From: Candidatus Krumholzibacteriia bacterium
GTDB lineage: Bacteria > Krumholzibacteriota > Krumholzibacteriia > JAJRXK01
Length of the DNA stretch: 47,590 nucleotides
NCBI GenBank assembly: GCA_029932915.1
Contig: JAOZPE010000022.1
Location: 1-47,590, forward strand
Direction: 5' to 3'
Shown: positions 27,443 through 46,206 of the stretch, piece after piece
Numbering within the stretch: the first letter of the stretch is position 1
Layout: each line of letters opens with the position of its first letter
Notes under the pieces: model-generated
The model's database searches: none
Told to the model about the DNA's origin: nothing
The model's input: only the letters and a program-made list of their open reading frames with translations
Translations under genes and position numbers: made by a program

Positions 27443-27514
27443 GGGGCCGCCCGGAGGGCAGACGGGCGTGAGCCGGTCCGAAGGGGCCGTAGCGCCCCAG
27501 CCAGGGAGGATCCC

Positions 27515-28009: not shown

Positions 28010-28110
28010 ATTCCTCCTGAACGGCCCTGTTTCCTCCTTTTCCCTCCCTTTCCGTGCGCAGCCGTGGGCAGTGCCCCATCCCCAAGCGCCCGGCGCGCTT
28101 GCGGGCCGGG
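27991..28110 (+). terminator. possible terminator and polypyrimidine tract before the giant gene
   Basis: GGGCCG (27991-27996) can pair with CGGCCC (28022-28027) across a 25-base loop and is followed by 24 pyrimidines (28030-28053). A second hairpin, CCCGGC/GCCGGG (28089-28110), lies further on. I see no convincing sigma70 promoter in this gap, so the start of transcription of the giant gene is unresolved. Confidence 0.3.
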
Positions 28111-28133
28111 GCCGCGGGCACGGTCATTGCATT

Positions 28134-28161
28134 CCAAGTGCTTGATCCACAAGCCACTTGG
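28134..28161 (+). promoter_or_regulatory. hairpin over the translation start region of the giant surface protein
   Basis: CCAAGTG plus CTTG (28134-28144) pairs with CAAG and CACTTGG (28150-28161), an 11-bp stem with one bulged C (28154) and the 5-base loop ATCCA. It ends 5 bases before ATG 28167 and buries the TTG at 28158. No Shine-Dalgarno is visible between it and the ATG. It could control translation or be a dyad operator. Confidence 0.55.
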
Positions 28162-28166
28162 CGGCA

Positions 28167-31100: not shown

Positions 31101-34100
31101 CAGCAGCGGGGCCACACCGGCGCGGACGGGCGGGTCTCGGTGCTCTATTCCTCGCCGTCCACCGCCGGCGCGGTCGACGTGCTCGACGCCACCGCCAGCG
31201 GGATCGCCGCCGGTGCAGTCGACGACCTCGTCTTCACCGCGGTGGAGGGAAGTGCCAGCGCCATCGTTCTCACGCTTCCCGCCGACGCCACACGCGCCGG
31301 TGTCGAGGGCAGTCTCCAGGTGCAACTGGTGGACGAGTGGGGCAACCCGGCCTCCTCGGCCTCGGCCACGGTGCGACTGGCTGCGGATGCCTCCAGCGGG
31401 ATGGGCTTCTCCGCCTCCAGCGGCGGCCCCTATGCCTCTTCTCTCGATCTGCCGGTGCTCGGCAGCCGCAGCGTCTACTTCCGGGGAACCCTCGAGGGTG
31501 TGCACACGGTGAGCGCCGAGGACACAGCGTCCGTGCTCTCGTCGGCGAGCGGGCAAGTGGAGATCGTGGCCAGCGACCAGGTGGCCGCCTACGACTTGAG
31601 CTATCCGCCGATCGCTGCCGCCGGGACGACCTTCACCCTGCGCGCCGATGCCTACGACGCCTTCGGCAATCCGGCGATCGACGCCGCCGAGGACTTCATT
31701 CTGAGTCTGGTGGACGCCGCTGACAGCAACCTGGGTGTGCCCGTTCCCCTGCAGGTCGACGCCGGAAGCCTTGGCGACGGCTTCTTCGAGACCACCCTGG
31801 AGCGGGTGGACGTCGCCGGTTCGTACCGGGTGCGTCTCGATTCGCCGTCGGGCCGGTGGTTCGGCCCCTCCCTGCAGATCGATCCCGCAGCGGCCTGGCA
31901 GCTCACGGCGGTCGGAGCCGACAGCCTGAGCGGGGTCACTGCGGGCGAGGCGGTCGACTTCACCGTGGAGGTGCTCGACTCCTTCGGCAATCCGGTACCG
32001 GCCGAGAACTTGAACGTGGTGACGCTGGAAGGTGGGACGCTCCTGCTCCGCCCCGACACCACGGACGCCGGCGGGCGCGCCCTCTTCCGTCTGCGCACCG
32101 ACGCGCAGGTGGGCCAGGCGCGTCTGCGCGTGGGTATCGATGACAACGATCCCATCGATCTGGAGACCGCGCTGCTGGTGGTGGACACCGTTGCCGGATC
32201 CATCGCTTCCCTCCAGCTCACCCCGTCCGCACTGCTGGTGCAGGCCGGTGAGAGCCTGTCCTTCGTGGTCGAGGCCTTCGACGCCGCGGGCAATCGCGTC
32301 GAGTCGGCCACCGATCTGGTCGACTTCACGGCGACGAGCGCGGCCGTGGCCATCACGCCCCCCTCGGCGAACCTCTCCGGAGGTGAGGTGGCAGCAGCCG
32401 CGGTGGACACCCTGGTCGAGCAGTTCCAGGTGCATGCGGCGTTGAACGCCGACCCGTCCATCGCCGTCGACAGCGAACTCATCTCCGTGCACGCGGCCGG
32501 GGCATGGCGCGTCATCGCCGTCGGCGACACTCTGCTCAGCGCACCGTCCGGCTCGCGCCAGCCCCTGCAACTGCGGGTGGAGGATCGCTTCGCCAATGCG
32601 GTGGCCGGCGTGGTCGTCCGTCTCTCGCTGCTCGAGGCGCCCGAGGGGGCCTCGCTGGAGGATCCCGATTCCCCGGTCAACGACGGGCTGGCACTCACCG
32701 ATGCGCAGGGCGAGGTGTCCTTCGATCTGCTCCTGTCGGCCCTGAGTGGAACCCATCGGGTGGAGGCGGCCATCCTCGACGGCAGTCCGGCTTCCCTGGA
32801 GCGCGCCAAGTGGACGGTGGAGGGCCTGGCCGGTGCGGCCGACCACGTGATCCTGCACCTGGCCCAGGACGATCTCGTCGCCGGACAGGCGGCCGAGCTC
32901 GGCGTGCGGGTGGAGGACACGGTGGGCAATCTCGTGGAGACCGACGGTGAGATGGTCCTGAGCGCACCGGGCTTCTCCTTCTCCACCGATCCGGAGACCA
33001 TCCTGCTGAGTGAGGGAACGGCGACGGTCTCCCTGAGCGTCTTCACCGCGGGCGTGGCCACCTTCGACGCGGCCCTGGCCGAACATCCCGAGGTCACCGG
33101 AAGCCTGGATTCCGTCGTGGTCGCGCCGGCCGAGGCGGCCGGCGTCATCGCCATCGAGCAGATCGATCCCCCTGAGAACACGGCCAACGGTCTGGCCGTC
33201 ACCCGCATCGTCACCGCTCCGATCCGCGACGCCTGGGACAACGTGGTGCGTGAGGGCAGCAGGGTGGACGTCAGCGCCGACGGCGGCGCCATCGTCTCCG
33301 ACGACCTCGACCCCTTCCGGCCGGGCGTGCAGCGTTCGACCGACGCGCTTGGACAGGTGGAGCTGCGTCTGGCCGCACCCTTGACACCGGGTCCGGTGAA
33401 CATCGACTTCACCAGCGCGGCCGCCACGGGACGCGCCGTCGCCACCTTCGCCGCTCCGGCCGAGCTGAGCGCCGACGGATCGCTCAGCCCGTCCAGCGCC
33501 GTTCCCGGCGCGGATCTCACCTTCACCCTGGACGTGCACAACGGCGGCGGCGTCGACGCCCTGCTCGATCCCGCCCAGTGCAGCCTGCGCATCGTGGACG
33601 GTACGGGCCGGGTCGTCACCGCCTTGCTGGCCGCGGCGCAGACCGTCCCCGCGGCTTCGACCGTGACCCTGTCCTTCGCCGCGGTGACCCTTCCCGCCGA
33701 CTTCGCTCCGGGCAGCCTGGCACCGACGGTGAGCCTGGCCGGTGTGGATGTCCACGGACAGCCGGTCATGGCCTTCCTGCCCTTGCCCGAGGGCTCCTTG
33801 GTGGTGGCCTCGCTGGTCGTGCGTTCGGTCACCCATCCGAGTCAGGCGGTGGTCGGCGACACCGTCTCGGTCGCGGTGAAGGTGGAGAATCTCGGGGCGG
33901 GAGTCATCGACCTGAGCCAGCTCGCCCTGCGCACGTCTCCCCTGGCGGACTTCGTCCAGATCGACCAGGATGCGCTTCCCTCGTTGGCGGCCGGGGCACA
34001 GGCGGACGTGTCCACCCGCCTGCTGGTGGGAAGCGCGACCGCCGTCGGCAGCTATCGCTTCGTAGCCCGGGTGACCGGCAGCGTGGGCGGGATTCCCTTC

Positions 34101-37091
34101 ACCGCTCCGGAGGACTCCTCGCTCACTCCTCTGGTGGTCCAGTCGGCGTCGGACGTGCAGATCGTCGACGGGGGGGTCACGCCCCCGATCATCCACCGCG
34201 GCGCGGAGCTGGCCCTGGAGCTGAGGGTCCGCAACGATGGCGGCGCGGTGGTGGAGCTGGACGCTTCGGCCTGCGTGGCCCGTCTGTCCGGGAGTTCATG
34301 GCAGGCTCCCATGAGCGGTCCGGTGGCCCTGGCACCACAGGAGGAGACCCTCCTGCGCTTCGATCCGGTGGTGGTGGACACGAGTGTGCCCACCGGATCG
34401 CACGATCTCCTGTTGCATCTGGAAGGGGAGGAAGGCCTCTCTTCGGTCGTGATCGATCTGGTCGCCGCCGGCGCCGTCCTGGTGCAGACACCGGTGCAGT
34501 TGAGCCTGGATGTCGTTCCCCTCGATCCGGCCGCCGTGCTGCGCGGCTCCACCGTGTCCTTCCGGCTGAAGCTGCACAACGCCGGCGAGGCCACGCTCGA
34601 TCTCGATCCGCTGGCGACCGCCCTGACCCTGGGCGAGCCGGGGGGGGGACGTCTGCGCGCCGGCCTCGATCCCCAGGGGACACTGGAGATCGCGCCGGGC
34701 GAGACGATCGTGAACTTCCTGTCCCTCGATCTGCCCGCCGATCTGCTGCTCGGTGATCCGGTGGGTGTGGCACAGATCCGCGGGCTCGAGAACGGCCTGC
34801 CCTTCGAGGCCGACCTTTCCCTGCCGCCGGGCAGCCTGCGTGTGGAGGATCCGGCCGGTCTGCGCATCCTCTCCACCGAGGCATTGAACCCCCGCGCGCC
34901 TGCGGCCGAGGTGAACGCCGGCCAGACGATCCCGCTGCGGGTGGTGGTGGGCAACGCCGGAGGCGATGGCGTCGACTCGCTGCTGGTGCGTCTGAGCGGA
35001 ACGGCGACGCCGCCTTCGACTGCACCCGATCGCTTCGTGGCCCACCTGGCCGGAGGTGCGGTCGATACCCTGCTCTTCGAGGTGCAGGTGAGTTCGAGCA
35101 TCGGGCCGGAAGTGCTGCGCGCGCAGATCGTCCGCGCGGTGTCCCCCATCACCGGCGAGACGGTGACGCCCGAGACGCCTCTGGACGATCTGGCCTCGCT
35201 GGTGGTGCAACGGCCGGTCGCGCTGGCCTTCGACGCCGGCTTCCCCGCAGGGGACGATCCCCACGGGCTGTCGGTGAGCCCGGGCCAGGTCTTCTCCGTG
35301 CAGGCCCGTCTCGAAGCCGATCCCTCCGTGGATGGCCAGGGCGAGTGGCTGGGGGTCGATGTCACGCTGGACGGTCTGGGGGGCTTCACTCCCGTCGATC
35401 CCGGCGCGCTCCCCCTGCATCTCGATCCGGCCCATCCGGTGTCGTCCCTGGAGCTGCGCGCGCCGCTGGCCGCCGAGAATACCGAGCTGGTGGTGGCGCT
35501 CGCCCGCGTCGATCTGGACGCCAACGACCCACAGGCGCATCCGCTGACCACACCCTCCAGTGTCACCCTGCACCTCGAGGTCAACGGGGGCGTGGCCTTC
35601 GAGCGCTGTGAGCTGGCCTTGACCGCGCCCCAGGGCGCGCTCGACCACATCCTGAGCACGGGCCAGTCGTTCACGGTGCGTGGGACGCTGACCGGACCGG
35701 ACAACCTGCAGGAGCGTGTCGTCGAGCTGCTCGTGCCCTCCTCGCTGGCCCTGGTGGGTGGGGCGGCGCGGCAGGCGATCGCACCCGGTGACAGCACGGT
35801 CAGCTGGCAACTGCAGTGTCCGGTGCTGCCCGCCTTCGGCCTGCAGCTGTCGATGGCCGCGGTGGCCAACGACGTCCAGAGCGGTGAGGCGGTTGCGGAC
35901 ACCAGCTCGGCACTCGTACTCGAGGTGGTCGAAGCGGCCCGTGCGGTGGCCCGTCTGGAGGTGACTGCTCCGGTGAGCGCTGCCCAGCGCGGAGAGCTGC
36001 CGCCCAACGCCGAGGTCGAGTTCCAGGGTGGCTTCGATCTTCTCGGTGACGCCTCGGCCCGTGGTCCGGCGCAACTGCGTCTGGAGTTGCCCGAGGGCTT
36101 CACCCTGATCGACGACAGCGAAGCGGTCGTGACGCTCGACGATCCGGCCGAGCTGGTGCACTGGCGGGCGCGCGGACCCGCCCGCGTCGATCTGGGGGTG
36201 CAGACCATCGTCCTGAGGACGGAGACGGCGCCGATCGATGAGAACAGCGAAGAACCCGCTTCCGGAAGTGATGTAACGGCAAGTGTTTCTCTGACGATCC
36301 TGGCAGATCCCCTGAAGGTGCAAGTGGCCGATCTCGATTCGGTGGGGTCCCTCGTCGGATCGGACCGCTTCTATCCGAAGGCCACCTTGACGGTGCGCAA
36401 CGGTCTGGACCACGCGGTCCAGCTCGAGCGGATCGAGCTGACGGTGGTGGACGACGCGGGCCGGCCGGTGGACGAGCCCTCCCGTTTCCTGCAGGCGGTG
36501 GAACTGTCCGGCGAGGGTGCGGCCGGAGACCACGAGGCCACCGTCGAGGCCAATCCGGTGGTGATCGAGATCGGAAGCGTGCTGGAGAGCGACGGCGAAC
36601 TCCGGCTCGTCCTGGGCGTCCGCGCCCACGAGCAGGCTCCGTATGCGTCGTTCGCCTTCGCGCTGGACGGCCGCTCGGTGGTGCTCACCGAATCGAGCGC
36701 GGTTCCCTTGAACTATCAGCTGCTCGACGGCGAGGGCCAGAGTCGCTCACAGGTCGTTGTCGCGGCCGGCGTGACGTCTCCGACCACCCAGGAATTGAGT
36801 GCGCACAGCTATCCCAACCCCTTCGTGCCCAGCCGTGGGCAGGCCACCCTGGCCTATGCCCTGCGCGACGACGCCCCGGTGCGCATCGAGATCTTCGACA
36901 TGCTCGGCAAGCGGGTGCGCGAGTGGAACTTCCCGGTGGGGACGGACCAGAGCCGGGCCGGTGTCCACGACGGCGACGTGCGGTGGGACGGACGCAACGG
37001 CCGGGGGCAGACCGTTCGCAACGGTGTGTATCTGTGCCGTCTGCGCGCGGGCGGACACGAGGTCATCTACCGGATCGCGGTGACCCGATGA
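28167..37091 (+). CDS. giant Ig/CARDB-repeat surface protein with type-IX-like C-terminal domain
   Basis: About 2,974 residues with a long signal peptide ending near SSAFALGG. From about residue 165 to 1770 there are up to fifteen bacterial Ig (Big_1/invasin-like) units, each marked by D-[AS]-[FWY]-[DG]-N-P-V or a variant; four are near-regular 101-103-residue repeats. About five CARDB-like units follow (NNGG/VENLGAG/LHNAGEA turns), then further beta domains. The last ~95 residues are a FlgD/Por-secretion-type tail (SYPNPFVPS, VRIEIFDMLGKRV, WDGRNGRGQTVRNGVY). ATG 28167 or 28176 is preferred; TTG 28158 sits in a hairpin. The stop overlaps the next ATG. It is probably an exported adhesin or filament; the ligand is unknown. 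Confidence 0.88.
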   Translation: MTSMRPLPQLARFGSARAVCSRVAWCLMALVLFVPSSAFALGGIQVAPGDSTVAAVGPHQIRFNTSRNIGVGGSIHIIYPDGFDLSGVTLQGWSGFGGASLSLSVSAQTVVVEIGGTAVAAGDKVLDLSGVGQPTQAASYVDTLTTRRANGKVLEGPEQSAPFELVAGPPEHLHLETAASSFVAGEFLSMRVIVIDAYGNPAPSGEDRPLDLLSDSPGGSYHLATTDPAIDTVTLAADSSGIDLYYRDTMVQESPITLTVLDGSSPSLGFDQATVDLLAAAVDAAHSTVGATSPVTADGVAVSTVSVVLLDAFDNPVAGVDSARIAFTLDAPSYGVNKSESVSAPDGAFGAELRTLWAGEWTVQVSVDGTVLDTRPTVVFDPRPIDPVQSHLTASASAVADGVDAIALDLELMDAAGRAVSGVDSSAVVFEVLDGVAVVDELDSLSATDGSFSARLRSTVAGGRRVTAVVDGVALADTVIVQFVAGAVDALHSTVTAGGPAVADGVDSLRLDIVLRDGFDNPVAGVDSAAIEVFLADAAVDKAAAASASDGSFLAFLRSTRAGGRLVTVTAAGVALADTVQAVFETAGVDSASSSLTATGAAVADGVEVVSLTLTLLDAWSNPVAGIDSSRISLDLPHPWQVEKLDGASDAAGVFHLGLRSTLSSSGWVTARVDGSAVATPVWAEFVAGPLDHYQLVLPDGPSTVAGVSARLVLEARDLLDNRIVQHLGTVTVSAATGGDGSNLGWTSLGQGTLTPSGASAVDYAFAAGDSGQVTLEISDTRAESLVLQATEGSAAGSVELEVQAAAAARLVMLDGDGQSAVVATQLPQTLTARVTDAWDNPVAGEPVDFLAADGGRSDVDPSTPGDQTTAVSAADGLVSCPVWELGPVAGVQHLAAQAAFGGRVDYSATALAGPAAGLTLEPNGDQQLSVSSSAVVAARAVDAYGNAVAGLEVTIFVTDAIDGILSGVGETDSLGLSQQRGHTGADGRVSVLYSSPSTAGAVDVLDATASGIAAGAVDDLVFTAVEGSASAIVLTLPADATRAGVEGSLQVQLVDEWGNPASSASATVRLAADASSGMGFSASSGGPYASSLDLPVLGSRSVYFRGTLEGVHTVSAEDTASVLSSASGQVEIVASDQVAAYDLSYPPIAAAGTTFTLRADAYDAFGNPAIDAAEDFILSLVDAADSNLGVPVPLQVDAGSLGDGFFETTLERVDVAGSYRVRLDSPSGRWFGPSLQIDPAAAWQLTAVGADSLSGVTAGEAVDFTVEVLDSFGNPVPAENLNVVTLEGGTLLLRPDTTDAGGRALFRLRTDAQVGQARLRVGIDDNDPIDLETALLVVDTVAGSIASLQLTPSALLVQAGESLSFVVEAFDAAGNRVESATDLVDFTATSAAVAITPPSANLSGGEVAAAAVDTLVEQFQVHAALNADPSIAVDSELISVHAAGAWRVIAVGDTLLSAPSGSRQPLQLRVEDRFANAVAGVVVRLSLLEAPEGASLEDPDSPVNDGLALTDAQGEVSFDLLLSALSGTHRVEAAILDGSPASLERAKWTVEGLAGAADHVILHLAQDDLVAGQAAELGVRVEDTVGNLVETDGEMVLSAPGFSFSTDPETILLSEGTATVSLSVFTAGVATFDAALAEHPEVTGSLDSVVVAPAEAAGVIAIEQIDPPENTANGLAVTRIVTAPIRDAWDNVVREGSRVDVSADGGAIVSDDLDPFRPGVQRSTDALGQVELRLAAPLTPGPVNIDFTSAAATGRAVATFAAPAELSADGSLSPSSAVPGADLTFTLDVHNGGGVDALLDPAQCSLRIVDGTGRVVTALLAAAQTVPAASTVTLSFAAVTLPADFAPGSLAPTVSLAGVDVHGQPVMAFLPLPEGSLVVASLVVRSVTHPSQAVVGDTVSVAVKVENLGAGVIDLSQLALRTSPLADFVQIDQDALPSLAAGAQADVSTRLLVGSATAVGSYRFVARVTGSVGGIPFTAPEDSSLTPLVVQSASDVQIVDGGVTPPIIHRGAELALELRVRNDGGAVVELDASACVARLSGSSWQAPMSGPVALAPQEETLLRFDPVVVDTSVPTGSHDLLLHLEGEEGLSSVVIDLVAAGAVLVQTPVQLSLDVVPLDPAAVLRGSTVSFRLKLHNAGEATLDLDPLATALTLGEPGGGRLRAGLDPQGTLEIAPGETIVNFLSLDLPADLLLGDPVGVAQIRGLENGLPFEADLSLPPGSLRVEDPAGLRILSTEALNPRAPAAEVNAGQTIPLRVVVGNAGGDGVDSLLVRLSGTATPPSTAPDRFVAHLAGGAVDTLLFEVQVSSSIGPEVLRAQIVRAVSPITGETVTPETPLDDLASLVVQRPVALAFDAGFPAGDDPHGLSVSPGQVFSVQARLEADPSVDGQGEWLGVDVTLDGLGGFTPVDPGALPLHLDPAHPVSSLELRAPLAAENTELVVALARVDLDANDPQAHPLTTPSSVTLHLEVNGGVAFERCELALTAPQGALDHILSTGQSFTVRGTLTGPDNLQERVVELLVPSSLALVGGAARQAIAPGDSTVSWQLQCPVLPAFGLQLSMAAVANDVQSGEAVADTSSALVLEVVEAARAVARLEVTAPVSAAQRGELPPNAEVEFQGGFDLLGDASARGPAQLRLELPEGFTLIDDSEAVVTLDDPAELVHWRARGPARVDLGVQTIVLRTETAPIDENSEEPASGSDVTASVSLTILADPLKVQVADLDSVGSLVGSDRFYPKATLTVRNGLDHAVQLERIELTVVDDAGRPVDEPSRFLQAVELSGEGAAGDHEATVEANPVVIEIGSVLESDGELRLVLGVRAHEQAPYASFAFALDGRSVVLTESSAVPLNYQLLDGEGQSRSQVVVAAGVTSPTTQELSAHSYPNPFVPSRGQATLAYALRDDAPVRIEIFDMLGKRVREWNFPVGTDQSRAGVHDGDVRWDGRNGRGQTVRNGVYLCRLRAGGHEVIYRIAVTR
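29010..30236 (+). repeat. four tandem ~306-bp repeats encoding Ig-like domains
   Basis: Units start at 29010, 29319, 29628 and 29931 and end at 30236, i.e. 309, 309, 303 and 306 bp. Each encodes VDxxxSxxTAxxxAVADGV, then a LLDAFDNPVAGVDS-type core and a closing ALADTVxxxF strand. The copies are diverged, so this is old duplication rather than a recent slippage repeat. Confidence 0.85.
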
Positions 37092-39193
37092 TGCGCACGA
37101 CCGACATCCGCCGTTCACTCTCCCTCCGGCCGGCGGCCGGAGGGGGGAGCCGGGGCAAGGGAATGCCCGGCGTGAAGGGTTCGTTCCCGGGTGCCGTCGT
37201 GTGCGGAAGGGGAAAGCGGGACCTGAGGCCGGCGGTGGTGGTCTTCGTCCTTCTGGCGATGCTGGTGTCCACGATTGTCCCGCTCGGGCCGGGGCCCTCC
37301 GTGGCGCACGCCCAGGATTCCGGAGGTACCGACAGCGTCTTCCGCCTCGGCCCGACCGCCCGTGGCGTCGGCCTGTCAGCGGCGATGGTGGGGCTGGCCC
37401 TCGACGCGAGCGCGCCGTACTGGAACCCCGCGCTGCTGGCGCACGTTCCGGGATCCCAGCTCACCCTCAGTTTCAACCGTCTGTACAGCATCGACGACGG
37501 TGCGGCCTACCAGTACGTGGGACTGGTGATCCCCACCCTGCACGCGGGGGGCTTCGGCGTGGGTCTGATGCGTCTGAGCCTCGGTGGCATCGACACCTAC
37601 GATGCGTCGAGCCGGCCCACCGGCAGCATCGACTACGCAGAGACCCAGATGCTCTTCAGCTACGGATGGGGAACGCGAATGCCCCTGATCGGCGGCCGTA
37701 TCGACCTGGGCCTGAGTGCGAAGATCCACAGCCTCGAACTCTCCGAGCGCTCCACCAGCGGGGGCATGGATGGGGCGGTGGCCTGGCAGCCGCCGCATCT
37801 GGATGCCTTCCGCCTGACCTGGGTTTCGCAGAACCTGATCGCGCCGGCCTTCCGTCTGGTGGAGATGGAGGACGAGGAACCCTCGACCCAACGCTTCGCC
37901 GTGAGCTTCCACCGGAGGCTCGGCGAGCCCACGACCCTGGCCCTGGCCGTCGACTACGACCTGCCCGAGCTGGCCGACGCGCGCCTGGCGGTGGGAGGGG
38001 AGTTCGCCTACCGCGGTCTGTACACCGTGCGGGCCGGCTACGACTCCGAGCGCTTCAGTGTGGGTCTGGGAGGACGTTGGCGCGCCTACGCGCTCGACTA
38101 CGCCTTCCGTTCGGGCGGCGAACTGGGAGCCTCCCAATTCCTGACCTTCACCTGGCACTTCGGCGAGAGCATCCAGGAGCGCCGTCTGGAGAACGAGCGC
38201 CAACGGCAGCTCGAACTGCAGCAGGCGCGGATGGAGGCGGTGGAGAAGTGGCGTCGGCAGGAAGCCACCCGTGCCCTGGACGAGGTTCGCGTACGCCTGG
38301 ATCGTGGCGAGCTGGATACGGCCGAGGAGAGCCTGGCCCGGGCTCGCGGTCTCGGAGCCGACGAGGATCTCCTGGCGCCTCTGCAGGAGGAGCTCGGCCG
38401 CCTGCAGGAGCAGAGGCGGCAGAACGAGGTGGCCGACGAGCTGCATCGCTCACAGGTGCGCCAGGCCGAGCAGGCGGTGCGCAGCGCACTGGCCGAGGGC
38501 GATCCTCCGGCCGCCCGTCTCGCCCTGCAGCAGTTGCAGCGGATCGCTCCGGACCATCCCATGCTGCCGCGGCTCTCCGCCGAGGTGGACGATCTGCTGG
38601 CGGGAGCCATCGCCCGGGCCCAGGCAGAGGCCACCGCGGCCGAGCAGGACGGTGACTGGGAGACGGCCCTGCGGGCGTGGGGTGAGGTGGCCCGTCTCGA
38701 TCCCGCCGACCCCGGTCCGGCGGCGGCCCAAGCCCGTTGGCAGGCCCAGCTCGAGGCCGCGCGTCACGACAGCGAACAGGCCCGGGCGCAGGCGGCCCAG
38801 GCGCGTCGACAACTCGTTCAGGAACAACGCTATACGCAGGCCCTCGAAGACTTTGCACAAGGTGAGTTCGATACCGCAGCCGCGCTGTGCAACGAGGTGC
38901 TCCAGGTCCAGCCCGGCCATGCCGGTGCGCGTGAATTGCTCCGGCGCATCGAGCTCCGTCGCCGTCAGCCGCGCCAGCTCAGCCCGCAGGAGGCCGAGGC
39001 GGTGCGCAACTTCTATCTGGCCGGTCTCACCCGCTTCACCGACGGCGACTACGAGGGCGCGATCAGCCAGTGGGAGAAGATCCTCCAGATCGATCCGGGC
39101 AATCAGGGGGCGCGCAACAACATCGACGAGGCCCGGGCCCGTCTGAAGAGTCTGCATCGCGGAGAAGAGCAGCGCGAGGGGGAGCCACGGTGA
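37088..39193 (+). CDS. PorV/PorQ-like outer-membrane barrel fused to TPR/coiled-coil tail
   Basis: This ~701-residue product has a basic stretch of ~45 residues, then a hydrophobic signal segment ending near SVAHAQD. Residues about 85-335 match the UPF0164/PorV/PorQ barrel pattern (RLGPTARGVGLSAAMVGLALDASAPYWNPALLA, then alternating beta strands to FTWHFGES). Residues about 340-440 are Arg/Gln/Glu-rich coiled coil, and the remainder holds TPR-like helical pairs (GDWETALRAWGEVARLDPADPG, GEFDTAAALCNEVLQVQPGHAG, GDYEGAISQWEKILQIDPGNQG). PorV shuttles type IX cargo in Bacteroidetes. The start ATG 37088 overlaps the giant gene's stop; ATG 37163 would give a more normal signal peptide. The stop overlaps the next GTG. 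Confidence 0.8.
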   Translation: MMRTTDIRRSLSLRPAAGGGSRGKGMPGVKGSFPGAVVCGRGKRDLRPAVVVFVLLAMLVSTIVPLGPGPSVAHAQDSGGTDSVFRLGPTARGVGLSAAMVGLALDASAPYWNPALLAHVPGSQLTLSFNRLYSIDDGAAYQYVGLVIPTLHAGGFGVGLMRLSLGGIDTYDASSRPTGSIDYAETQMLFSYGWGTRMPLIGGRIDLGLSAKIHSLELSERSTSGGMDGAVAWQPPHLDAFRLTWVSQNLIAPAFRLVEMEDEEPSTQRFAVSFHRRLGEPTTLALAVDYDLPELADARLAVGGEFAYRGLYTVRAGYDSERFSVGLGGRWRAYALDYAFRSGGELGASQFLTFTWHFGESIQERRLENERQRQLELQQARMEAVEKWRRQEATRALDEVRVRLDRGELDTAEESLARARGLGADEDLLAPLQEELGRLQEQRRQNEVADELHRSQVRQAEQAVRSALAEGDPPAARLALQQLQRIAPDHPMLPRLSAEVDDLLAGAIARAQAEATAAEQDGDWETALRAWGEVARLDPADPGPAAAQARWQAQLEAARHDSEQARAQAAQARRQLVQEQRYTQALEDFAQGEFDTAAALCNEVLQVQPGHAGARELLRRIELRRRQPRQLSPQEAEAVRNFYLAGLTRFTDGDYEGAISQWEKILQIDPGNQGARNNIDEARARLKSLHRGEEQREGEPR
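37122..37144 (+). promoter_or_regulatory. perfect 10-bp hairpin just inside the PorV-like gene
   Basis: CCCTCCGGCC (37122-37131) and GGCCGGAGGG (37135-37144) are exact inverted copies with a 3-base loop, 31 bases past the giant gene's stop. It may be an intercistronic structure that partly ends or stabilises the 9-kb message. If so, the true PorV-like start could be ATG 37163. Confidence 0.45.
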
Positions 39194-41703
39194 TCGGAGG
39201 AAGGATCCAGCACGCCCAGTTGGTGGTGGAGGCCAAGGAGAGCACTCTTCTGGAGGTGCGCGACTTCGTGGCCCGGATCTGCCGCTATGCCGGCTTCGAT
39301 GCCGTCGACATCGGCAACTTCAAGCTGGCGGTCGACGAGGCCTGCACGAACATCATCCAGCACTCCTACCGCAACATGGGCGGAGAGATCTCCATCGACG
39401 TGGGCTACCGCTCTGGCTGGGTGGAGATCCGCATCCGCGATCACGGTGAGTCCTTCGATTTCGAGGCGGTGGCCCTTCCCGACCTCGACCACTACGTGGC
39501 CATCGGCAAGCGCGGTGGATTGGGGATCTACCTGATCAACCGCATCATGGATGAGGTGGAGTACCACTCCGGTGACGGAGAGAACGAACTGCGCCTGGTG
39601 ATGGATCGGCGTCCGGCGATGGACCGCTGGATCCCCGGCTTCCACTTCTCCATCTTCCACCGCAGCCTCCGGGTGCGCTTCACCCTGCGGGCTTCCCTGG
39701 GTCTGACCCTTCTGGTGGTGCTCGCCCTGGGCGTGATCCACGTGCGTCAGAGGCGCACGATCTTCGATCATGAACTCGCCCGGGTGGAGGCCGTCGCCCG
39801 CGACACCGCCGTCGAGGCGCAGAGCGTGCTCAGCAGCGGTGATCCCTATTCGCTCGGCCGCACCCTGCTGCAACAGAGCGTGGTCGAGCTGGCGCGCAAC
39901 GACTCGACCATCGCCTACGTGCGCGTGGTGCACGACAGCGACGGGATGATCTGGGTGGATACCCGGATGGAGAAGCTCTTCACCTCCTGGCATCCCCGTC
40001 CCGGACGCCTCGTCCACCGCGAGGCGACCGAGGGCCAGTGGCAGGGGATGCGCACCTCCATGGGCGGGGTCTACCAGTTGAGCTATCCGGTGACCATCCA
40101 CGGCCCCGACGGGGAGACGGTGCGTCTGGGGCAGGTCATCCTCGGCCTGAAGCAGTCCAGCCTGCATGAACTCTATCGCTCCGCCCTCGTGCACACCGCT
40201 CTCATCGGCCTGCTGGCCCTGCTGGCGGGCAGCGTGCTGATCTTCATCATGGTGCATCTCTTCGTGCGGCCGATCCAGCAACTCACCGAAGGGGTGCTGG
40301 CCATCGGTGACGGCGTGCTCGAGAAGGACATCGAGGTGCAGGGCCCCGAGGAGATCTCCACCATCGCGGCCGCGTTCAACGAGATCGCCGGGAAGTTCCG
40401 CAACGCCCAGGAGCACCTGGTGGAGCAGGAGCGTCTGCAGAAGGAGATGCAGCTGGCCCGGGAGATCCAGCACACCCTGCTGCCGACGGAGATGCCCGAC
40501 CTTTCCGGCTACGAGATCGCGGCCATGTACCGCGCCGCGGCCGAGGTGGGCGGCGACTACTACGACTTCTTCACCGTCGACGAGGATACCACCGGCATCG
40601 TCGTGGCCGACGTGTCGGGCAAGGGCATTCCGGGCAGCCTGGTGATGACCATGATCCGCACCGCGCTGCGCATGGAGGCCCGGGGCAACCACAACGCCAG
40701 CGACGTGATGTCCCGGGTGAACGCCTTCATCACCGAGGACATGCGCAAGGGGATGTTCATCACCCTCTTCTACATCATCCTCGATTCGCGCAACCGCGTG
40801 GTGAGCTATGCCTCGGCCGGACACAACCCCATGCTGCTGTACCGCAGGGAGACCGACGAGGTGTTCTTCCTCAACCCGCCCGGTTTCCCGGTGGGCATCT
40901 CCCTTCCCGATCCCGAGCTCTTCGAGCGGACGATCGACGTCGAGCGTCTGCAACTGCAGCAGGACGATCTCCTGCTGGTGTACACCGACGGGGTGACCGA
41001 GGCGATGAACGCCGCCCGCGAGCAGTACGGAGAACAGCGCCTCATCCAGTGTGTGCGCGAGCACTCGGGCAAGACGGCCGAGGAATTCATCGAGGCCCTC
41101 AACCGCGACGTGGCCGACTTCACCGCGGGTTTCGCCCAGAACGACGACATCACCGTGGTGGCCATCAAGGAGAAGATGCGGCCGGCCTCCTTGGAGATCG
41201 AACGCCGGCAGCGCCTGCTCGACATGGTGGAAGTGCAGGGGATGGAGATCGAGGAGGCCTGCCGCGAGTACGGCGTCTCCGTGTCCACCTACTACCGCTG
41301 GCGCCGCCTCAAGGAGAAGGGTGGAGAGGAAGCCCTGGCCGGCCGGGCCGGCCGCGGCGGTCTGCGGCGCCTCACCGTCGAGGAGCGGGAGGCGCTGCTG
41401 GCCCTCGTGCGCAGGGATCCCTCGCTCGGCGCCAAGAGGTTGGCCGATGAACTCGCTCGCTCCGGCTATTCTCCGACCGCGCGGATGGTCTACGAGGAGC
41501 TGGTACGGCTGGACCTGAGCAACGAGGTGCGGCGCCGTCAGTACCTGCATACGCGGGGTTGGACCGAGGGCTCGAGTGCCGAGGATCCGACGGGCTCTTC
41601 CGAAGGGCCGGCCGCCGGCGATTTGGACCGAACTTTGCAAGATCCCCCCGTGGAAACGCCGTCCTCTGGAGAGACCGAGGAAATCCCCTTGGAATCCCGG
41701 TGA
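39190..41703 (+). CDS. RsbW-like ATPase / sensor / HAMP / RsbU-like phosphatase / paired HTH fusion
   Basis: This 837-residue protein has, in order: HATPase_c_2 anti-sigma kinase-type domain (about 8-140; N box Glu50...Asn54, G1 Asp84-x-Gly86, G2 GGLGI at 109-113); membrane helix (about 166-184); extracytoplasmic sensor (about 186-332); second helix (about 334-358); HAMP and linker (about 355-420); SpoIIE PP2C phosphatase (about 420-661; GGDYYD at 454-459, VADVSGKG, SAGHNP, YTDGVTEA with Asp600, NDDITVV); and two C-terminal HTH units (about 672-710 and 727-790) like the N-terminal DNA-binding part of IS481/IS3-type transposases, without any DDE core. GTG 39190 overlaps the upstream stop. Kinase and phosphatase for a STAS protein on one chain, plus DNA binding, is unusual. 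The STAS gene follows. Confidence 0.9.
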   Translation: MIGGRIQHAQLVVEAKESTLLEVRDFVARICRYAGFDAVDIGNFKLAVDEACTNIIQHSYRNMGGEISIDVGYRSGWVEIRIRDHGESFDFEAVALPDLDHYVAIGKRGGLGIYLINRIMDEVEYHSGDGENELRLVMDRRPAMDRWIPGFHFSIFHRSLRVRFTLRASLGLTLLVVLALGVIHVRQRRTIFDHELARVEAVARDTAVEAQSVLSSGDPYSLGRTLLQQSVVELARNDSTIAYVRVVHDSDGMIWVDTRMEKLFTSWHPRPGRLVHREATEGQWQGMRTSMGGVYQLSYPVTIHGPDGETVRLGQVILGLKQSSLHELYRSALVHTALIGLLALLAGSVLIFIMVHLFVRPIQQLTEGVLAIGDGVLEKDIEVQGPEEISTIAAAFNEIAGKFRNAQEHLVEQERLQKEMQLAREIQHTLLPTEMPDLSGYEIAAMYRAAAEVGGDYYDFFTVDEDTTGIVVADVSGKGIPGSLVMTMIRTALRMEARGNHNASDVMSRVNAFITEDMRKGMFITLFYIILDSRNRVVSYASAGHNPMLLYRRETDEVFFLNPPGFPVGISLPDPELFERTIDVERLQLQQDDLLLVYTDGVTEAMNAAREQYGEQRLIQCVREHSGKTAEEFIEALNRDVADFTAGFAQNDDITVVAIKEKMRPASLEIERRQRLLDMVEVQGMEIEEACREYGVSVSTYYRWRRLKEKGGEEALAGRAGRGGLRRLTVEEREALLALVRRDPSLGAKRLADELARSGYSPTARMVYEELVRLDLSNEVRRRQYLHTRGWTEGSSAEDPTGSSEGPAAGDLDRTLQDPPVETPSSGETEEIPLESR

Positions 41704-41719
41704 CGATGAGATCTGAACA

Positions 41720-41760
41720 CTTTATCTGACAACGTGTTAGAGCGTTCGCTTCGGATAAAG
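41720..41760. promoter_or_regulatory. inverted repeats upstream of the STAS gene
   Basis: CTTTATC (41720-41726) and GATAAAG (41754-41760) are exact inverted copies. Between them lies an imperfect dyad, TCTGACA...TGTTAGA, centred near 41733. The right arm abuts the AAGGAG ribosome-binding site. It could be an operator, possibly for the upstream HTH, or an mRNA structure over the ribosome-binding site. Confidence 0.4.
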
Positions 41761-41777
41761 AAGGAGATGTCCTTTCG

Positions 41778-42140
41778 ATGGATGGAATCACGGTCATTTC
41801 GAAGGCGCATGAATCCTGCCCGGACCACCAGGTCCTGGACGTCGCCGGATACATCGACACCTCGACCTCGGCCGAACTGGAGCGGGAGATCAAATCCCTG
41901 ATCCACGCGGGCCGCTACAAGATCATCGTCGACCTCTCCCGCGTGTCCTACATCTCCTCGGCGGGCTGGGGGATCTTCATCAGCGTCATCCGCGAGATCC
42001 GCGAGAACGGCGGCGACCTCAAACTCGTGGGCATGATCCCCGATGTCTTCGAGGTCTTCGAATTGCTCGAGTTCCAGAACATCCTCGGTGCCTACCCCAC
42101 CGTCGAGGACGCGGTGAACGCGACGGCGGCCGCCACCTGA
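41778..42140 (+). CDS. STAS-domain anti-sigma factor antagonist (RsbV-like)
   Basis: This 120-residue single STAS domain has the typical VAGYIDTSTSAELEREI helix-strand and IIVDLSRVSYISSAGWGIFISV core. The phosphorylation site should be Ser60 or Ser61; Ser61 aligns with the Ser two before the Gly in RsbV (my alignment from memory). Dephosphorylated antagonists sequester an anti-sigma kinase and free its target. The natural partners are the kinase-type and PP2C domains encoded just upstream. AAGGAG (41761-41766) precedes ATG 41778 by 11 bases. The 74-base gap after the fusion gene holds inverted repeats, so separate control is possible. No sigma factor gene is in the window. Confidence 0.93.
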   Translation: MDGITVISKAHESCPDHQVLDVAGYIDTSTSAELEREIKSLIHAGRYKIIVDLSRVSYISSAGWGIFISVIREIRENGGDLKLVGMIPDVFEVFELLEFQNILGAYPTVEDAVNATAAAT

Positions 42141-42173
42141 TTCCCTGCCGCGCGCGCTCGGGACCTGCCGTCT

Positions 42174-42228
42174 GGAGGTGGCGGGGGAAGGGTCGATGGG
42201 ATTAGTATTCGGTGTCCCGCCTTCCTCC
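42174..42228 (+). terminator. large hairpin after the STAS gene
   Basis: GGAGG-T-GGCGGG (42174-42185) pairs with CCCGCC-TT-CCTCC (42216-42228), an 11-bp stem with a small internal loop and a 30-base apical loop. It lies between the STAS stop (42140) and the VWA gene (42252). There is no long T-run, so the terminator call is tentative. Confidence 0.4.
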
Positions 42229-42251
42229 GGTGAGCTTCCTCCAGAGAGCAC

Positions 42252-44492
42252 GTGGCCGCGGTGATCTCGACACCTCTTCCGATTCCTCCAGCCGTCTTGC
42301 ACCTGGCGCCCTCGGGTGTCGGGTCGTGGCTGATGGTGGCCCTCCTGTTCGTCCTGGCCGTGCTCGTCGGGGTCCACGCCTACCGGAACACCCTGCCCGA
42401 ACTCTCCGCCCGCCGCCGCTGGATCCTGCGGATCCTGCGCTGGACCTCGCTCTTGCTCGTGCTCTTCATGTTCCTCGAACCGGTCGTGGTGCGCCGCAGC
42501 CGCCGGAGTGTGCCGCCCGGTGTGCTCCTGCTCGTCGACGCCAGCCGCAGCATGGGGTTGGCCGGCGCGCCGGGGATCACACGAGGGGAACTGGCCGAGC
42601 GGTGGAAGGAGATGACGGCCCGCCGCCTTCGCCGTCGCCCCGAAGGAGTAGAGGTCATCGAGGGACGGGGAGCGCGCCGGCTGTGGCGCCCCGGCCGGGA
42701 AGGAGCCGGCGACGGCACCAATCTTCCCGCGCTGCTCTTGTCCGGGGCGCGCAGTCACGTGCAGGACAACCTGCAGGCCATCGTCCTCTTCAGCGACGGG
42801 GTCGACACCGATCGCGAACGGCCTTCCCTGTCCGGCTTGAAGGTGCCGGTGTTCACCGTGGCCGTCGGCGATTCCAACGTGAGGGGCGACCTGCGTCTCG
42901 ACCATGTGCGCTATCCCGCTCTCGTCTTTCGCGGTGAGAAGGTGGAGATCGACGCCGAAGCGGTGGTCGACGCCCCCCGTGCCGGCCGTTCGTGGGCGGT
43001 ACTGGAGGGGGGCATCCGCCCGGACAGCCTGGAGATCTCGTGGCCGGCCGGAGGCGGACGCTTCCCCCTGGCCTTCACCGTCACCGCCGACAGCCTGGGC
43101 ATGATCCGGCGCACGCTTCGTCTGCTCCCCCTTCCCGAGGAAGCCCTCCTGGAGAACAACCTCGTGGAGCTGGCCATGCAGGTGCGCCGGGAGCGTCTCC
43201 GCGTGGTGATGGTGGAGGAACGCCCCAGTTGGGACTTCCACTTCCTGCGGCGGCGCTTCGCGCGGGACCGGCGCTTCGAGCTCGAGGGTGTCTACCGCCG
43301 GCGCGAGCAGTGGGTGATCGCCGGTTCGGACAGCCTGTGGGTGCCGCCGCGCGACGCGGATGCGGCCGCCGGGGTCGATGTGTGGATCGTGGCCAGCCTG
43401 GACGATCTGCAGGAGATGGCGACGGCGGCGCCGGGCATCGAGGCCTCGGTTCGACAGGGGGCCGGCCTGTTGACGCTCTTCGGTGAGCGCCGCAGCCGCA
43501 CCCTTGCCGCCTTGTCGCCGCGGGCACGGGCGCTGCTTCCGGTGACGATCGAAGCCGGCGCCCGCTGGGTGGAAGGTGAGCAGCGGGCCGAGCTCACCGC
43601 GGCGGGGGTGGCCCATCCCATCCTCGATCTCCCCGGGTCGGTGGGGCCGGCCGCTTCGCGTCTGGACGGGATGCCGCCGCTGTGGGAAGCGGTCCGGGGC
43701 CTGCGTCCTCGGCCGGCCGCCGATGTGCTCCTGCGATTGCGCGGCCAGGAGGGAACGACGCCCCTTCTGGTGGTGGGACGGCATGGCAAGGGGAAGGTGG
43801 CCGCGTGGACGGCTGCTCCCCTGTGGAGCTGGTCGTACTGGAGACTGGGGGCCGAGGACAACGAGGACGTCTACTTCGCGCTGACCGGCAACCTTCTCTT
43901 CTACCTGGCCGAGGGCGGAGAGCGCGCGCGGCTTCGCCTCATCCTTCCCCGTCCGGTGGTGGCCATGGGCGAGGATGTGGCGCTGAGGGCGGTCGTGCTC
44001 GACTCGCGTCTGCAGCCGGACAGCGACAGCGACCTGTGGCTGGAGTGGAGGCGCGACGACGGCGCTGCGGTCGATTCGACCACCGAGGCCGAGGGACGGG
44101 TCCTGATGGAGGTCGACCGCTCGACGCCGGGAGGACGGACGCGGCAGCTTCCCGCCCTGCCGCCCGGCGGCTACCACCTGCGGGTCGCGCTCGAGGAGAG
44201 GGGCGGACGCATCGTCTCCCCCTGGCGTTCGCTCACCATCGACCCCTACTCGGTGGAGTTCCAGCGCCCGGGTGTGGACGCGGCCGCCCTGGCCGCTCTC
44301 GCCCGCTCGACCGGAGGGCGGCGTCTCACCGCCGATGAACTCCAGGAGTGGGCCGATCGCGTTCCCCTGTCGCCGGAGACCCGGACACGGATCCGCCGCA
44401 TTCCCCTGTGGGCGTCCCTCGGCCTCTTCCTCTCGCTCATCGTCAGCCTGAGCCTGGAATGGGCCTTGCGGCGTCGATGGGGAATGATCTAG
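42252..44492 (+). CDS. membrane-anchored VWA-domain protein
   Basis: This 746-residue protein has two N-terminal membrane helices (about 25-43 and 58-78), a von Willebrand A domain with MIDAS DASRSM (Asp96-x-Ser98-x-Ser100), GDGTNL and FSDGVDTD, then beta-rich and glutamine-amidotransferase-like segments (TTPLLVVGRHGKGKVAAWTA at about 497-516), and one C-terminal helix (about 718-736). Layout and topology resemble BatA-like membrane proteins that display a large domain outside the membrane. The start is GTG 42252, with GTG 42261 as an alternative; the ribosome-binding site is weak. The MIDAS is intact, so metal-dependent ligand binding is plausible. No MoxR ATPase gene is adjacent. Confidence 0.8.
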   Translation: MAAVISTPLPIPPAVLHLAPSGVGSWLMVALLFVLAVLVGVHAYRNTLPELSARRRWILRILRWTSLLLVLFMFLEPVVVRRSRRSVPPGVLLLVDASRSMGLAGAPGITRGELAERWKEMTARRLRRRPEGVEVIEGRGARRLWRPGREGAGDGTNLPALLLSGARSHVQDNLQAIVLFSDGVDTDRERPSLSGLKVPVFTVAVGDSNVRGDLRLDHVRYPALVFRGEKVEIDAEAVVDAPRAGRSWAVLEGGIRPDSLEISWPAGGGRFPLAFTVTADSLGMIRRTLRLLPLPEEALLENNLVELAMQVRRERLRVVMVEERPSWDFHFLRRRFARDRRFELEGVYRRREQWVIAGSDSLWVPPRDADAAAGVDVWIVASLDDLQEMATAAPGIEASVRQGAGLLTLFGERRSRTLAALSPRARALLPVTIEAGARWVEGEQRAELTAAGVAHPILDLPGSVGPAASRLDGMPPLWEAVRGLRPRPAADVLLRLRGQEGTTPLLVVGRHGKGKVAAWTAAPLWSWSYWRLGAEDNEDVYFALTGNLLFYLAEGGERARLRLILPRPVVAMGEDVALRAVVLDSRLQPDSDSDLWLEWRRDDGAAVDSTTEAEGRVLMEVDRSTPGGRTRQLPALPPGGYHLRVALEERGGRIVSPWRSLTIDPYSVEFQRPGVDAAALAALARSTGGRRLTADELQEWADRVPLSPETRTRIRRIPLWASLGLFLSLIVSLSLEWALRRRWGMI

Positions 44493-44497
44493 CCGAG

Positions 44498-44539
44498 CCT
44501 CTCTCCGCCTTTGACCCGCCTCTCTCCGCCTTTGACCCG
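44498..44539. repeat. perfect 21-bp tandem duplication in an intergenic gap
   Basis: Two identical 21-bp units (44498-44518 and 44519-44539) abut, and the first four bases of a third follow. They start five bases after the VWA gene's TAG and end 23 bases before the next ATG. Units contain CTTTGACC. The sequence looks like recent slippage or a duplicated binding site. Confidence 0.9.
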
Positions 44540-44562
44540 CCTCCCGGGAAGTGCAGCTTCCG

Positions 44563-46206
44563 ATGCGCTTTCTTCCGGGCTCGATCTTCGTCCTCCTTCT
44601 CCTCCTTCCCGGAGGTCCCACCTGGGGACAGTTGCTCCTGAACGAGGTCTTCTACGATCCACCGGGCAGTGACGGCGGACGCGAGTTCGTCGAACTCTAC
44701 GTGGCCGCATCGCAGGAGGTCTCCCTCGACGGGGTGCGCCTGGTCTTCGTCAACGGCGCTTCCCCCGACGAGCCCCGTACCGTCTGGCGCGCACCCGAGG
44801 GTCTCGTCCTGGAGGCGGGACGCTTCTGGGTGGTCGGTGGGGAGGAGGTGGAAGGACGCGATGCGACGGCCTCGCTGTCGCTGCAGAACGGGCCGGACGC
44901 GCTGTGGCTGATGCGGGGTGAGGACACCCTCGACCGTGTGGCCTGGGGTGAGGTGGAGGGGCTGGGCGAAGGGGCGCCTGCGGCTGACGTCTCCGGCGCG
45001 AGTCTGGGCCGCGTTCCCGACGGCAGTGACAGCGACGACAACGCGCGCGACTGGAGACGCCTGGATCCACCGAGTCCCGGCCGGATCAACGCGCCGGCGG
45101 TGCGGCTTCGCCTGGGTCGGATCGACACCGAGCCGCCCTTCCTGCCCATGGCCGGAGTCGTGCTCGCGCGCTGTCGGGTGCAGGCCGAGGGTTGGGCCGC
45201 CCGTCAGGAGGCGGCCCTGCGCTGGCTGCTCGACGGGCGTGCGCTCGCCGAGGCGTGGCTCGCCCTCGATCTGGGCGACACCGCCACTGCACAGGTCGAG
45301 TTCAGCCTGCCGGTGGGCCGTCACCTCCTGCAGGCCCGCGAGGAACTCGATGGGGCGGTGGCCGACAGTGTCTCGCTGGTGCTGCAGGTGGGGCCGGCCT
45401 CGGTGGTCCTCAACGAGCTGATGGCGCGGCCCTTGGAGGGTCGGCCCGAGTGGATCGAACTGCACGCCCGGCAGATGGCGCCGCCGTTGCTGAGGGGATG
45501 GTCCATCTGCGATGCCACCCGGCAGTGGCACGCCCTGCCGGACATCGTTCTCCCTCCGGACGGATACGTCCTGCTGTGCCCCGATCCCGCCGGGCTGCGC
45601 GAGGCCTTCGAGCTGCCCACGGAGGTGGAGGTTGTCACGCCGGCGGGGGGCTGGCCCTCACTCAACAACAGCCAGTCCAGTGGAGCTTCCTTTGCCGACG
45701 AGGTCCTCCTGCGCGATGGCTTCGGCGCCGTCGTCGACCGGCTGGCCTACGGGGAGGAGCTCGTGCCCGAGGCGGGGCGCAGCATCGAGCGGGGGCTGAT
45801 CGCCCCCGACACACCGGTGGCCTGGTTCGTCTCTCCCGCCGCTCCCAGTCCCGGCCGCCCCAACCCCAGCGCACAGGTGGCCCTGCCGCAGGCCGGCTTG
45901 AGGATCGAGCCGAATCCCTTCACTCCCGATGGCGACGGCCAGGGCGATCTCCTGCACATCGTCCTGCGCCATGGGCTCGATGGGCGGCGGGTCACCGCAG
46001 GGATCTACGACCTCCAGGGCGGGCGCGTGCGGCTGCTCGGAGCGGACGAGGGCGGTGGTGCCCTGCGGCAGTGGCTGTGGGACGGCCGCGACGAGCGGGG
46101 ACGGGCCGTGCCCATGGGAGCCTACGTGGTGGTGGTCGACAGCGGCGGTGAAGGACGCGCGCCCCAGCGGTGGACCGCGCTGGTGGCCCTGGGACGACGA
46201 CGTTGA
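44563..46206 (+). CDS. secreted lamin-tail-domain protein with FlgD/type-IX-like tail
   Basis: About 547 residues with a signal peptide ending near PTWGQ. Two lamin-tail domain (LTD) units are visible: one at the mature N-terminus (LLLNEVFYDPPG, REFVELYV) and one from about residue 275 (VVLNELMARP, PEWIELHA, then LPPDGYVLLC). A linker follows, and from about residue 445 a sorting-type tail of PNPFTPDGDGQGD, a GIYDLQGG strand and WDGRDERGRAVPMGAY. LTDs in bacteria are common on secreted nucleases and surface proteins; no nuclease motif is seen here. ATG 44563 is preferred; GTG 44551 is possible. The stop overlaps the next TTG (46203). Confidence 0.83.
   Translation: MRFLPGSIFVLLLLLPGGPTWGQLLLNEVFYDPPGSDGGREFVELYVAASQEVSLDGVRLVFVNGASPDEPRTVWRAPEGLVLEAGRFWVVGGEEVEGRDATASLSLQNGPDALWLMRGEDTLDRVAWGEVEGLGEGAPAADVSGASLGRVPDGSDSDDNARDWRRLDPPSPGRINAPAVRLRLGRIDTEPPFLPMAGVVLARCRVQAEGWAARQEAALRWLLDGRALAEAWLALDLGDTATAQVEFSLPVGRHLLQAREELDGAVADSVSLVLQVGPASVVLNELMARPLEGRPEWIELHARQMAPPLLRGWSICDATRQWHALPDIVLPPDGYVLLCPDPAGLREAFELPTEVEVVTPAGGWPSLNNSQSSGASFADEVLLRDGFGAVVDRLAYGEELVPEAGRSIERGLIAPDTPVAWFVSPAAPSPGRPNPSAQVALPQAGLRIEPNPFTPDGDGQGDLLHIVLRHGLDGRRVTAGIYDLQGGRVRLLGADEGGGALRQWLWDGRDERGRAVPMGAYVVVVDSGGEGRAPQRWTALVALGRRR

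Follow-up and report, generated by a model that had tools for sequence, protein, structure and literature searches.

Can a signal received outside the cell reach DNA through a partner switch that has no sigma factor at its end? The question is raised by one gene in the window, the stretch of 47,590 nucleotides from a Candidatus Krumholzibacteriia bacterium that was analysed here. RsbW/SpoIIAB-type kinases and PP2C phosphatases oppose each other on a serine of a STAS protein. An earlier note, made from the sequence letters, had described the gene as a fusion of both enzymes with a membrane-spanning sensor and a transposase-type helix–turn–helix (HTH), and had proposed that it bypasses a sigma factor. 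Our study finds this protein, here called the hub, in two phyla, and its architecture suggests a switch whose output could be on DNA, with no sigma factor involved (Table 1).

Table 1. Coordinates of the hub gene, its domains and the genes around it (window positions unless a locus is named)
Feature	Position	Strand	Evidence
Giant surface protein, Big_1/invasin-type Ig repeats, FlgD_ig-like C-terminus, 2977 aa	28158..37091	+	Domain scan; loci of both phyla
PorV/TraF_2-like outer-membrane barrel + TPR; coordinates of the open frame, start provisional	36923..39193	+	Weak Pfam match and kinship
Hub gene: RsbW-like kinase/TM/sensor/TM/HAMP/SpoIIE PP2C/bipartite IS481-type HTH, 837 aa	39190..41703	+	Frame, Pfam, NCBIfam, AlphaFold model
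RsbW-type ATPase (HATPase_c_2), residues 14-137, N/G1/G2 boxes intact	39229..39600	+	Pfam 3.6e-28; invariant residues; Foldseek to RsbW/SpoIIAB
TM1 + extracytoplasmic alpha/beta sensor region + TM2, ~residues 168-355	39691..40254	+	Column identity, model, hydrophobicity
HAMP, residues 354-401	40249..40392	+	Pfam 4.6e-9
SpoIIE/PP2C phosphatase, residues 465-660	40582..41169	+	Pfam 1.6e-50; own-genome search; Foldseek to SiaA PP2C and SpoIIE
HTH unit A, helices 666-681, 687-694, 698-716	41185..41337	+	Pfam HTH_28/HTH_23; model
HTH unit B, helices 730-742, 748-757, 764-773, 779-788	41377..41553	+	HTH_32; model; half also on Eisenbacteria STAS proteins
STAS protein, 120 aa, serine in YISSAGWG motif, presumed substrate	41778..42140	+	Pfam 3e-19; TIGR00377 1.5e-17
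VWA/GATase1-like membrane protein	42252..44492	+	Pfam matches below cut-off; loci comparison
Lamin-tail-domain (LTD) protein with FlgD/CHU_C-like end	44551..46206	+	Pfam; loci comparison
ParA/MinD-family ATPase, example locus	L058:5167-5949	-	AAA_31

Anatomy of the hub protein

The hub gene is one uninterrupted frame, running from a GTG at 39190 to the stop at 41701-41703. Pfam bore out the five-part anatomy first described, with HATPase_c_2, HAMP, SpoIIE and HTH matches that all exceed the gathering scores, the HTH families being HTH_28 (residues 672-723, 5.4e-9), HTH_23 (668-716, 1e-8) and HTH_32 (700-768, 1.4e-8); the membrane helices were placed from hydrophobicity and the model. TM2 (337-355) is the strongest hydrophobic stretch of the protein, and TM1 (about 168-186) was set by eye and from a long helix in the model. 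No REC domain was found in the hub by Pfam, and the TM, sensor and HAMP segments lie in its place. The kinase boxes and the phosphatase domain had been called intact, and the residues concerned are present: E50 and N54 in the N box, D84 and G86 in G1, G109, G110 and G112 in G2, and the PP2C aspartates D456, D474, D600 and D653. We take these positions to be catalytic or metal-binding residues, and those checked are invariant in 30/30 aligned hubs, the window counted in.

Conservation is uneven along the protein. Mean column identity is 0.82 in SpoIIE, 0.71 in HTH unit A, 0.67 in the kinase and 0.57 in unit B, and falls to 0.37 in the sensor (residues 160-335), the least conserved part, where sCache_3_2 is matched in relatives only. 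The best NCBIfam match of the kinase domain is RsbW (4.1e-20; 71.8 bits, with a cut-off of 145), and residues 336-659 match SiaA (5.7e-18). An AlphaFold model of the whole hub, built from 21 sequences, predicts the kinase, two long helices flanking an alpha/beta region, the PP2C domain and two terminal helical units; given a mean pLDDT of 72 and a pTM of 0.36, we rely on the single domains and not on how they are placed relative to one another. By Foldseek, the kinase and PP2C parts of the model match structures of RsbW, SpoIIAB, SiaA, SpoIIE and Rv1364c, with SiaA (6k4e) the top-ranked structure for the PP2C part.

Distribution of the hub in two phyla

We searched 80 genomes of the window's phylum, Krumholzibacteriota, and 47 of a second phylum, Eisenbacteria. 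A query with the HTH matched 29/80 Krumholzibacteriota genomes (the window counted in) with E values no higher than 1.3e-16; a thirtieth, G074, matched at 1.1e-9 next to a run of N. At E 0.001 the tally is 39/80, but the additional hits fall in frames 87-450 residues long, and many of these have the size of a transposase. The N-terminal half as query likewise matched 29/80 genomes, at 2.4e-21 or better, and the genomes matching the two halves are identical save for G073, whose hub is cut by a contig end (L043). Both halves of the hub occur in the same 30 genomes. In G074 a distance of 874 kb separates the two parts of the hub, a sign that the scaffolds may be misordered. At 1e-10, no N-terminal-half match was found in the 38 genomes of family f6 or in the remaining three genomes of the family to which the window belongs.

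The whole hub, defined as a frame reaching from residue 15 or earlier to residue 774 or later, stands in one frame in 23 of the 29 Krumholzibacteriota loci fetched (window left out), at 45-50% identity; contig ends, runs of N or stops interrupt it in the remaining six. Eisenbacteria, reached via record L095, carry the hub in 11/47 genomes and the whole protein in 10 of those 11 loci, and the identity of whole relatives across both phyla is 43-50%. The search for the same architecture yielded whole relatives in two phyla, and because these carry the same join in one frame, an assembly frameshift or chimera, the risk that the earlier note had raised against its single fused protein, is ruled out. 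In a tree of 30 hubs the phyla form separate groups, with support of 100/99 for Eisenbacteria and 92/86 for Krumholzibacteriota; the window hub sits on a long branch with its placement unsure, and is nearest by path to Krumholzibacteriota.

Some loci gave the appearance of kinase-less or split hubs and were rejected as real variants. In three of these (L042, L069 and L098), all from genomes assembled as one contig, the hub breaks at runs of N, and the splits in L043, L065, L066 and L067 are at contig ends. L068 was also rejected, as in-frame stops break its hub.

An alignment of the HTH found 25 loci in genome_contigs (14 Krumholzibacteriota/-iia, 4 Latescibacterota, 1 Eisenbacteria and 6 without such a phylum), a set gathered via two short patterns from Krumholzibacteriota-type sequences, so that other phyla may be missed. 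One full-length hub sequence used as query returned no relatives from genome_contigs, and no close relative of the hub was confirmed in IMG/VR.

A transposase-type HTH module

In an NCBIfam search with the whole protein, hub residues 673-782 match positions 2-113 of the 284 of the IS481 transposase (6.3e-15; 55.4 bits, under the cut-off of 224). With the HTH alone, the match is 1.7e-16 over positions 2-112 for the window and 4.6e-17 for one relative. IS630 and IS3 models are also matched, and no DDE catalytic family appears in the Pfam or NCBIfam lists for the hub, which agrees with the initial description of an IS481/IS3-type HTH lacking a DDE core. A PHROGs search with the HTH returned transposase and other DNA-binding families, and a PDB sequence search with the HTH profile gave chance-like matches only. 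Recent insertion of an IS element was considered and rejected, because the genome has no further copy of the HTH, the next-best hit being at E 0.39.

The recognition-helix motif is near-invariant in the 30 hubs from two phyla. The HTH tends to be basic, with a mean net charge of +8.6 and a mean pI of 9.7; that of the window is less so (+5 in all, with -2 in unit A and +1 in unit B), and its mean identity to the others is 41% in unit A and 35% in unit B. Modelled alone, with a mean pLDDT of 82, the HTH matches single HTH structures, and unit B is predicted to be all-helical and without a wing. Among the 50 VIA-align rows shown, 14 align at least 90 residues, and all of these are bipartite DNA-binding folds (Pax, TnsB, Mu, Tc3, IstA and Mos1). 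A structural match to HTH folds, on which the earlier note had staked its reading of the C-terminus, was thereby obtained, albeit a weak one: the long VIA-align matches have Z 4.9-6.6 and rmsd 8.6-9.9, and the best Foldseek E is 0.15, with none at or below 0.001 and unrelated regulators lower in the list. With such low Foldseek and Z scores and an rmsd near 9, the HTH halves agree better than their arrangement. No IS481 structure is among the VIA-align rows shown, which carries no weight either way.

The STAS partner

Only 74 bases separate the hub and STAS genes in the window, which represents the plain state: an unfused hub and a 120-residue STAS protein without an HTH. The latter scores 63.4 bits with TIGR00377 (cut-off 53.45), and the serine of its YISSAGWG motif is presumably the phospho-acceptor. 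In 27/29 Krumholzibacteriota loci STAS follows the HTH within the hub frame; in the remaining two the frame is cut (L065) or broken (L068). Of six relatives submitted to Pfam, five have three STAS domains, and the sixth is truncated at a contig end. The suggestion that the neighbouring STAS protein is the likely substrate gains from this fusion; with both enzyme domains intact, hub and STAS may form a SypE-type pair, the substrate being assigned from neighbourhood and fusion.

In the fused hubs, a tail of the form IRxxGWxxYGxKL follows the last STAS domain (e.g. L071:3991-8385). The ParA-like gene of fused-hub loci is accompanied by a TPR protein (19/31 loci), with further STAS genes after it.

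Eisenbacteria hub frames are without STAS, and a separate STAS protein downstream bears a C-terminal copy of HTH unit B. A unit B profile built without Eisenbacteria sequences, with E values scaled for 1000 sequences, found this copy on 10/11 Eisenbacteria STAS proteins (E 4e-4 to 3e-9), the single miss, L146, ending early. The profile matched 0/41 other STAS frames (0/35 from Krumholzibacteriota, of <300 residues, 0/1 from the window and 0/5 from hub-less genomes) and 0/220 shuffled tails. STAS, VWA and LTD genes stand together without a hub in 5/10 hub-less loci examined, and the serine motif is kept in the STAS proteins of five hub-less genomes; STAS may therefore also serve another partner.

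The surface-protein operon

The hub lies in an operon in which the giant Ig/FlgD_ig protein is followed by the PorV-like/TPR protein, the hub, extra genes in the fused forms, STAS, VWA and LTD. This six-gene order is found in the window and in 10/11 Eisenbacteria, and is complete in 7/29 Krumholzibacteriota loci; the remaining ones show part of it, many because the contig or stretch ends. In both phyla the gene of the giant surface protein precedes those of PorV/TPR and the hub. The barrel protein, whose name PorV-like is in part our assumption, belongs to a family with many paralogues (71/80 genomes), and for this reason only its close matches are informative as an operon marker. The 22 listed matches above 120 bits are all in hub genomes, and the best in a hub-less genome reaches 99.6 bits. 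The VWA/GATase1-like protein has matches in 71/80 genomes, with the hub present or absent.

Three hub-less genomes of the window's family (L159-L161) have the order PPDK, DUF4388, STAS, VWA, LTD. The window differs in that the giant, PorV/TPR and hub genes lie between DUF4388 (27509-27997) and STAS. These three genes were thus gained or lost together, as a unit of ~13.5 kb (28158-41703), and this shared gain or loss ties the hub to the surface protein. Separately, the DUF4388 protein (L159:10436-11107 in a relative) is the STAS neighbour in hub-less relatives and a possible other STAS partner.

Search for a DNA target and sigma factors

No DNA target of the hub HTH was found. An inverted repeat at 41720-41760, between the hub and STAS genes, has 10-bp arms with 9/10 positions paired, and shuffles lead one to expect no such repeat, the pattern having been chosen after it was seen. 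It is single-copy in the genome, and its RNA fold is no better than that of shuffles (z -0.89). In L140, the Eisenbacteria locus that was compared, the hub and STAS genes adjoin and leave no space for such a repeat. We regard it as a candidate operator only.

No sigma-70 promoters were found in 27000-46500, with 0.6 expected. A SigB/F/G sigma factor scored over the curated cut-off in 0/80 genomes and in 1/14 control genomes, which speaks for the proposed bypass as far as factors of this type are concerned. Other sigma-70-type matches, below the cut-off, are present in all 80 genomes, and in the 16 window frames Pfam gave no sigma family save a sub-cut-off match of the HTH itself. The lack of SigB/F/G factors over the cut-off argues against the textbook output, though another sigma factor may be involved.

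Proposed mechanism and alternatives

We consider it an even call that the membrane sensor sets the phosphorylation of STAS and that this is read out via the HTH acting on DNA. We go no higher because the target was not found, the fold scores are weak, the window HTH is less basic and STAS occurs without the hub. An extracytoplasmic signal, which might be the condition of the surface protein, would be relayed through HAMP and would set the balance of the N-terminal kinase against the PP2C phosphatase, both cytoplasmic, acting in opposition on the serine of the neighbouring or fused STAS. In known families, kinase and PP2C domains likewise oppose each other on the STAS serine (SypE, PMC10120452; RsbU and Rv1364c, PMC12143880). 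PP2C phosphatases are often governed by a domain such as HAMP. Docking of STAS on and off the bipartite, paired-like HTH would change its binding to DNA, and a STAS protein with a second half-HTH might complete the hub HTH or compete with it. The surface-protein genes of this same operon are probably part of the target. We infer catalysis by the hub, STAS as substrate, DNA binding, the target and the direction of control from sequence. A tentative reading, with the chances clearly against it, is a sigma-free partner switching where a DNA-binding half-domain changes partners, the phosphorylation of STAS deciding which HTH halves meet on DNA at the membrane. In this reading the sensor enzyme holds the full bipartite HTH, and its STAS substrate is either fused to it or bears the matching second half.

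Two other outputs have to be weighed against action on DNA. The state of STAS may control assembly or export of the surface protein via PorV/VWA, as in SypE/SypA, which work below transcription (PMC10120452, PMC3610818), and the HTH would then be a dock for STAS. The operon encodes proteins of surface and envelope type, both phyla have HTH modules linked to STAS, and the window HTH is less basic, all of which would suit a dock; however, a mere dock need not keep a near-invariant recognition helix or a match to transposase DNA-binding regions, and we judge this output rather unlikely. We likewise judge ordinary partner switching rather unlikely; there the kinase domain would serve as anti-sigma factor to the primary, an RpoS-like or another sigma factor, and the HTH would only add affinity for promoters or the nucleoid. 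The kinase domain does resemble RsbW above all in NCBIfam, and RsbW and SpoIIAB in structure, sub-cut-off matches to other sigma-70-type factors exist in every genome searched, and the Rsb network of Chlamydia acts on the primary sigma factor (PMC4552016). Against this stand the lack of SigB/F/G factors over the cut-off and of a sigma family in the window frames, the HTH's own match apart, and the HTH halves on STAS proteins, which such an output leaves unexplained.

A spatial role has also been considered, in which the membrane-bound HTH anchors DNA or sits on the nucleoid together with a ParA-like ATPase. A ParA/MinD-family ATPase (AAA_31 3.3e-35) is present in 21/31 loci examined and directly follows the hub frame in 5/6 loci read, the sixth (L042) being at a run of N, and 14/18 long hub frames end in the IRxxGWxxYGxKL tail, which is basic. 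Yet ParA is matched in 0/11 Eisenbacteria loci and the 74-base gap between hub and STAS in the window is too short for such a gene, and we regard such a tether as very improbable. On the favoured reading, a STAS switch read out on DNA, a sensor at the outer surface would be connected to a surface-protein operon in a concrete way that experiments can probe, in lineages represented here solely by metagenome-assembled genomes.

Comparison with known systems

Like the IS481 transposase, the hub has a bipartite DNA-binding half, which is N-terminal in the transposase; it differs in lacking a DDE core, in being single-copy and in being conserved inside a signalling gene. A transposase-type DNA-binding half has thus been kept within a signalling protein across two phyla. 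The HAMP-SpoIIE half of the hub resembles the HAMP-PP2C half of SiaA. In the SiaA/SiaB/SiaC system, the kinase is a separate protein and the output is a diguanylate cyclase; to our knowledge it includes no HTH, and we know of neither a membrane part nor an HTH in Rv1364c of Mycobacterium tuberculosis. The latter (PDB 3ke6) is like the fused relatives in joining phosphatase, kinase and a STAS-type domain in one polypeptide, but has an N-terminal PAS input and another domain order, and its domains are named anti-sigma and anti-anti-sigma (PMC12143880). Also close in plan is SypE of Vibrio fischeri, which like the hub has an N-terminal RsbW-like serine kinase and a C-terminal PP2C in one protein and a STAS substrate, SypA, but carries REC in the middle where the hub has TM/sensor/TM/HAMP; an HTH or STAS fusion is not among the features described in PMC10120452 and PMC3610818. 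According to the same sources, the target of the STAS protein SypA is not known.

There are precedents for a kinase joined to a phosphatase (SypE) and for a single protein that combines phosphatase, kinase and STAS (Rv1364c). Among titles and abstract starts, with most subscription papers outside coverage, no report was found of an HTH joined to a kinase-PP2C enzyme or to STAS. Known partner switching ends in sigma-factor control or, for SypA, in an unknown last step; in the hub, the HTH may supply that last step.
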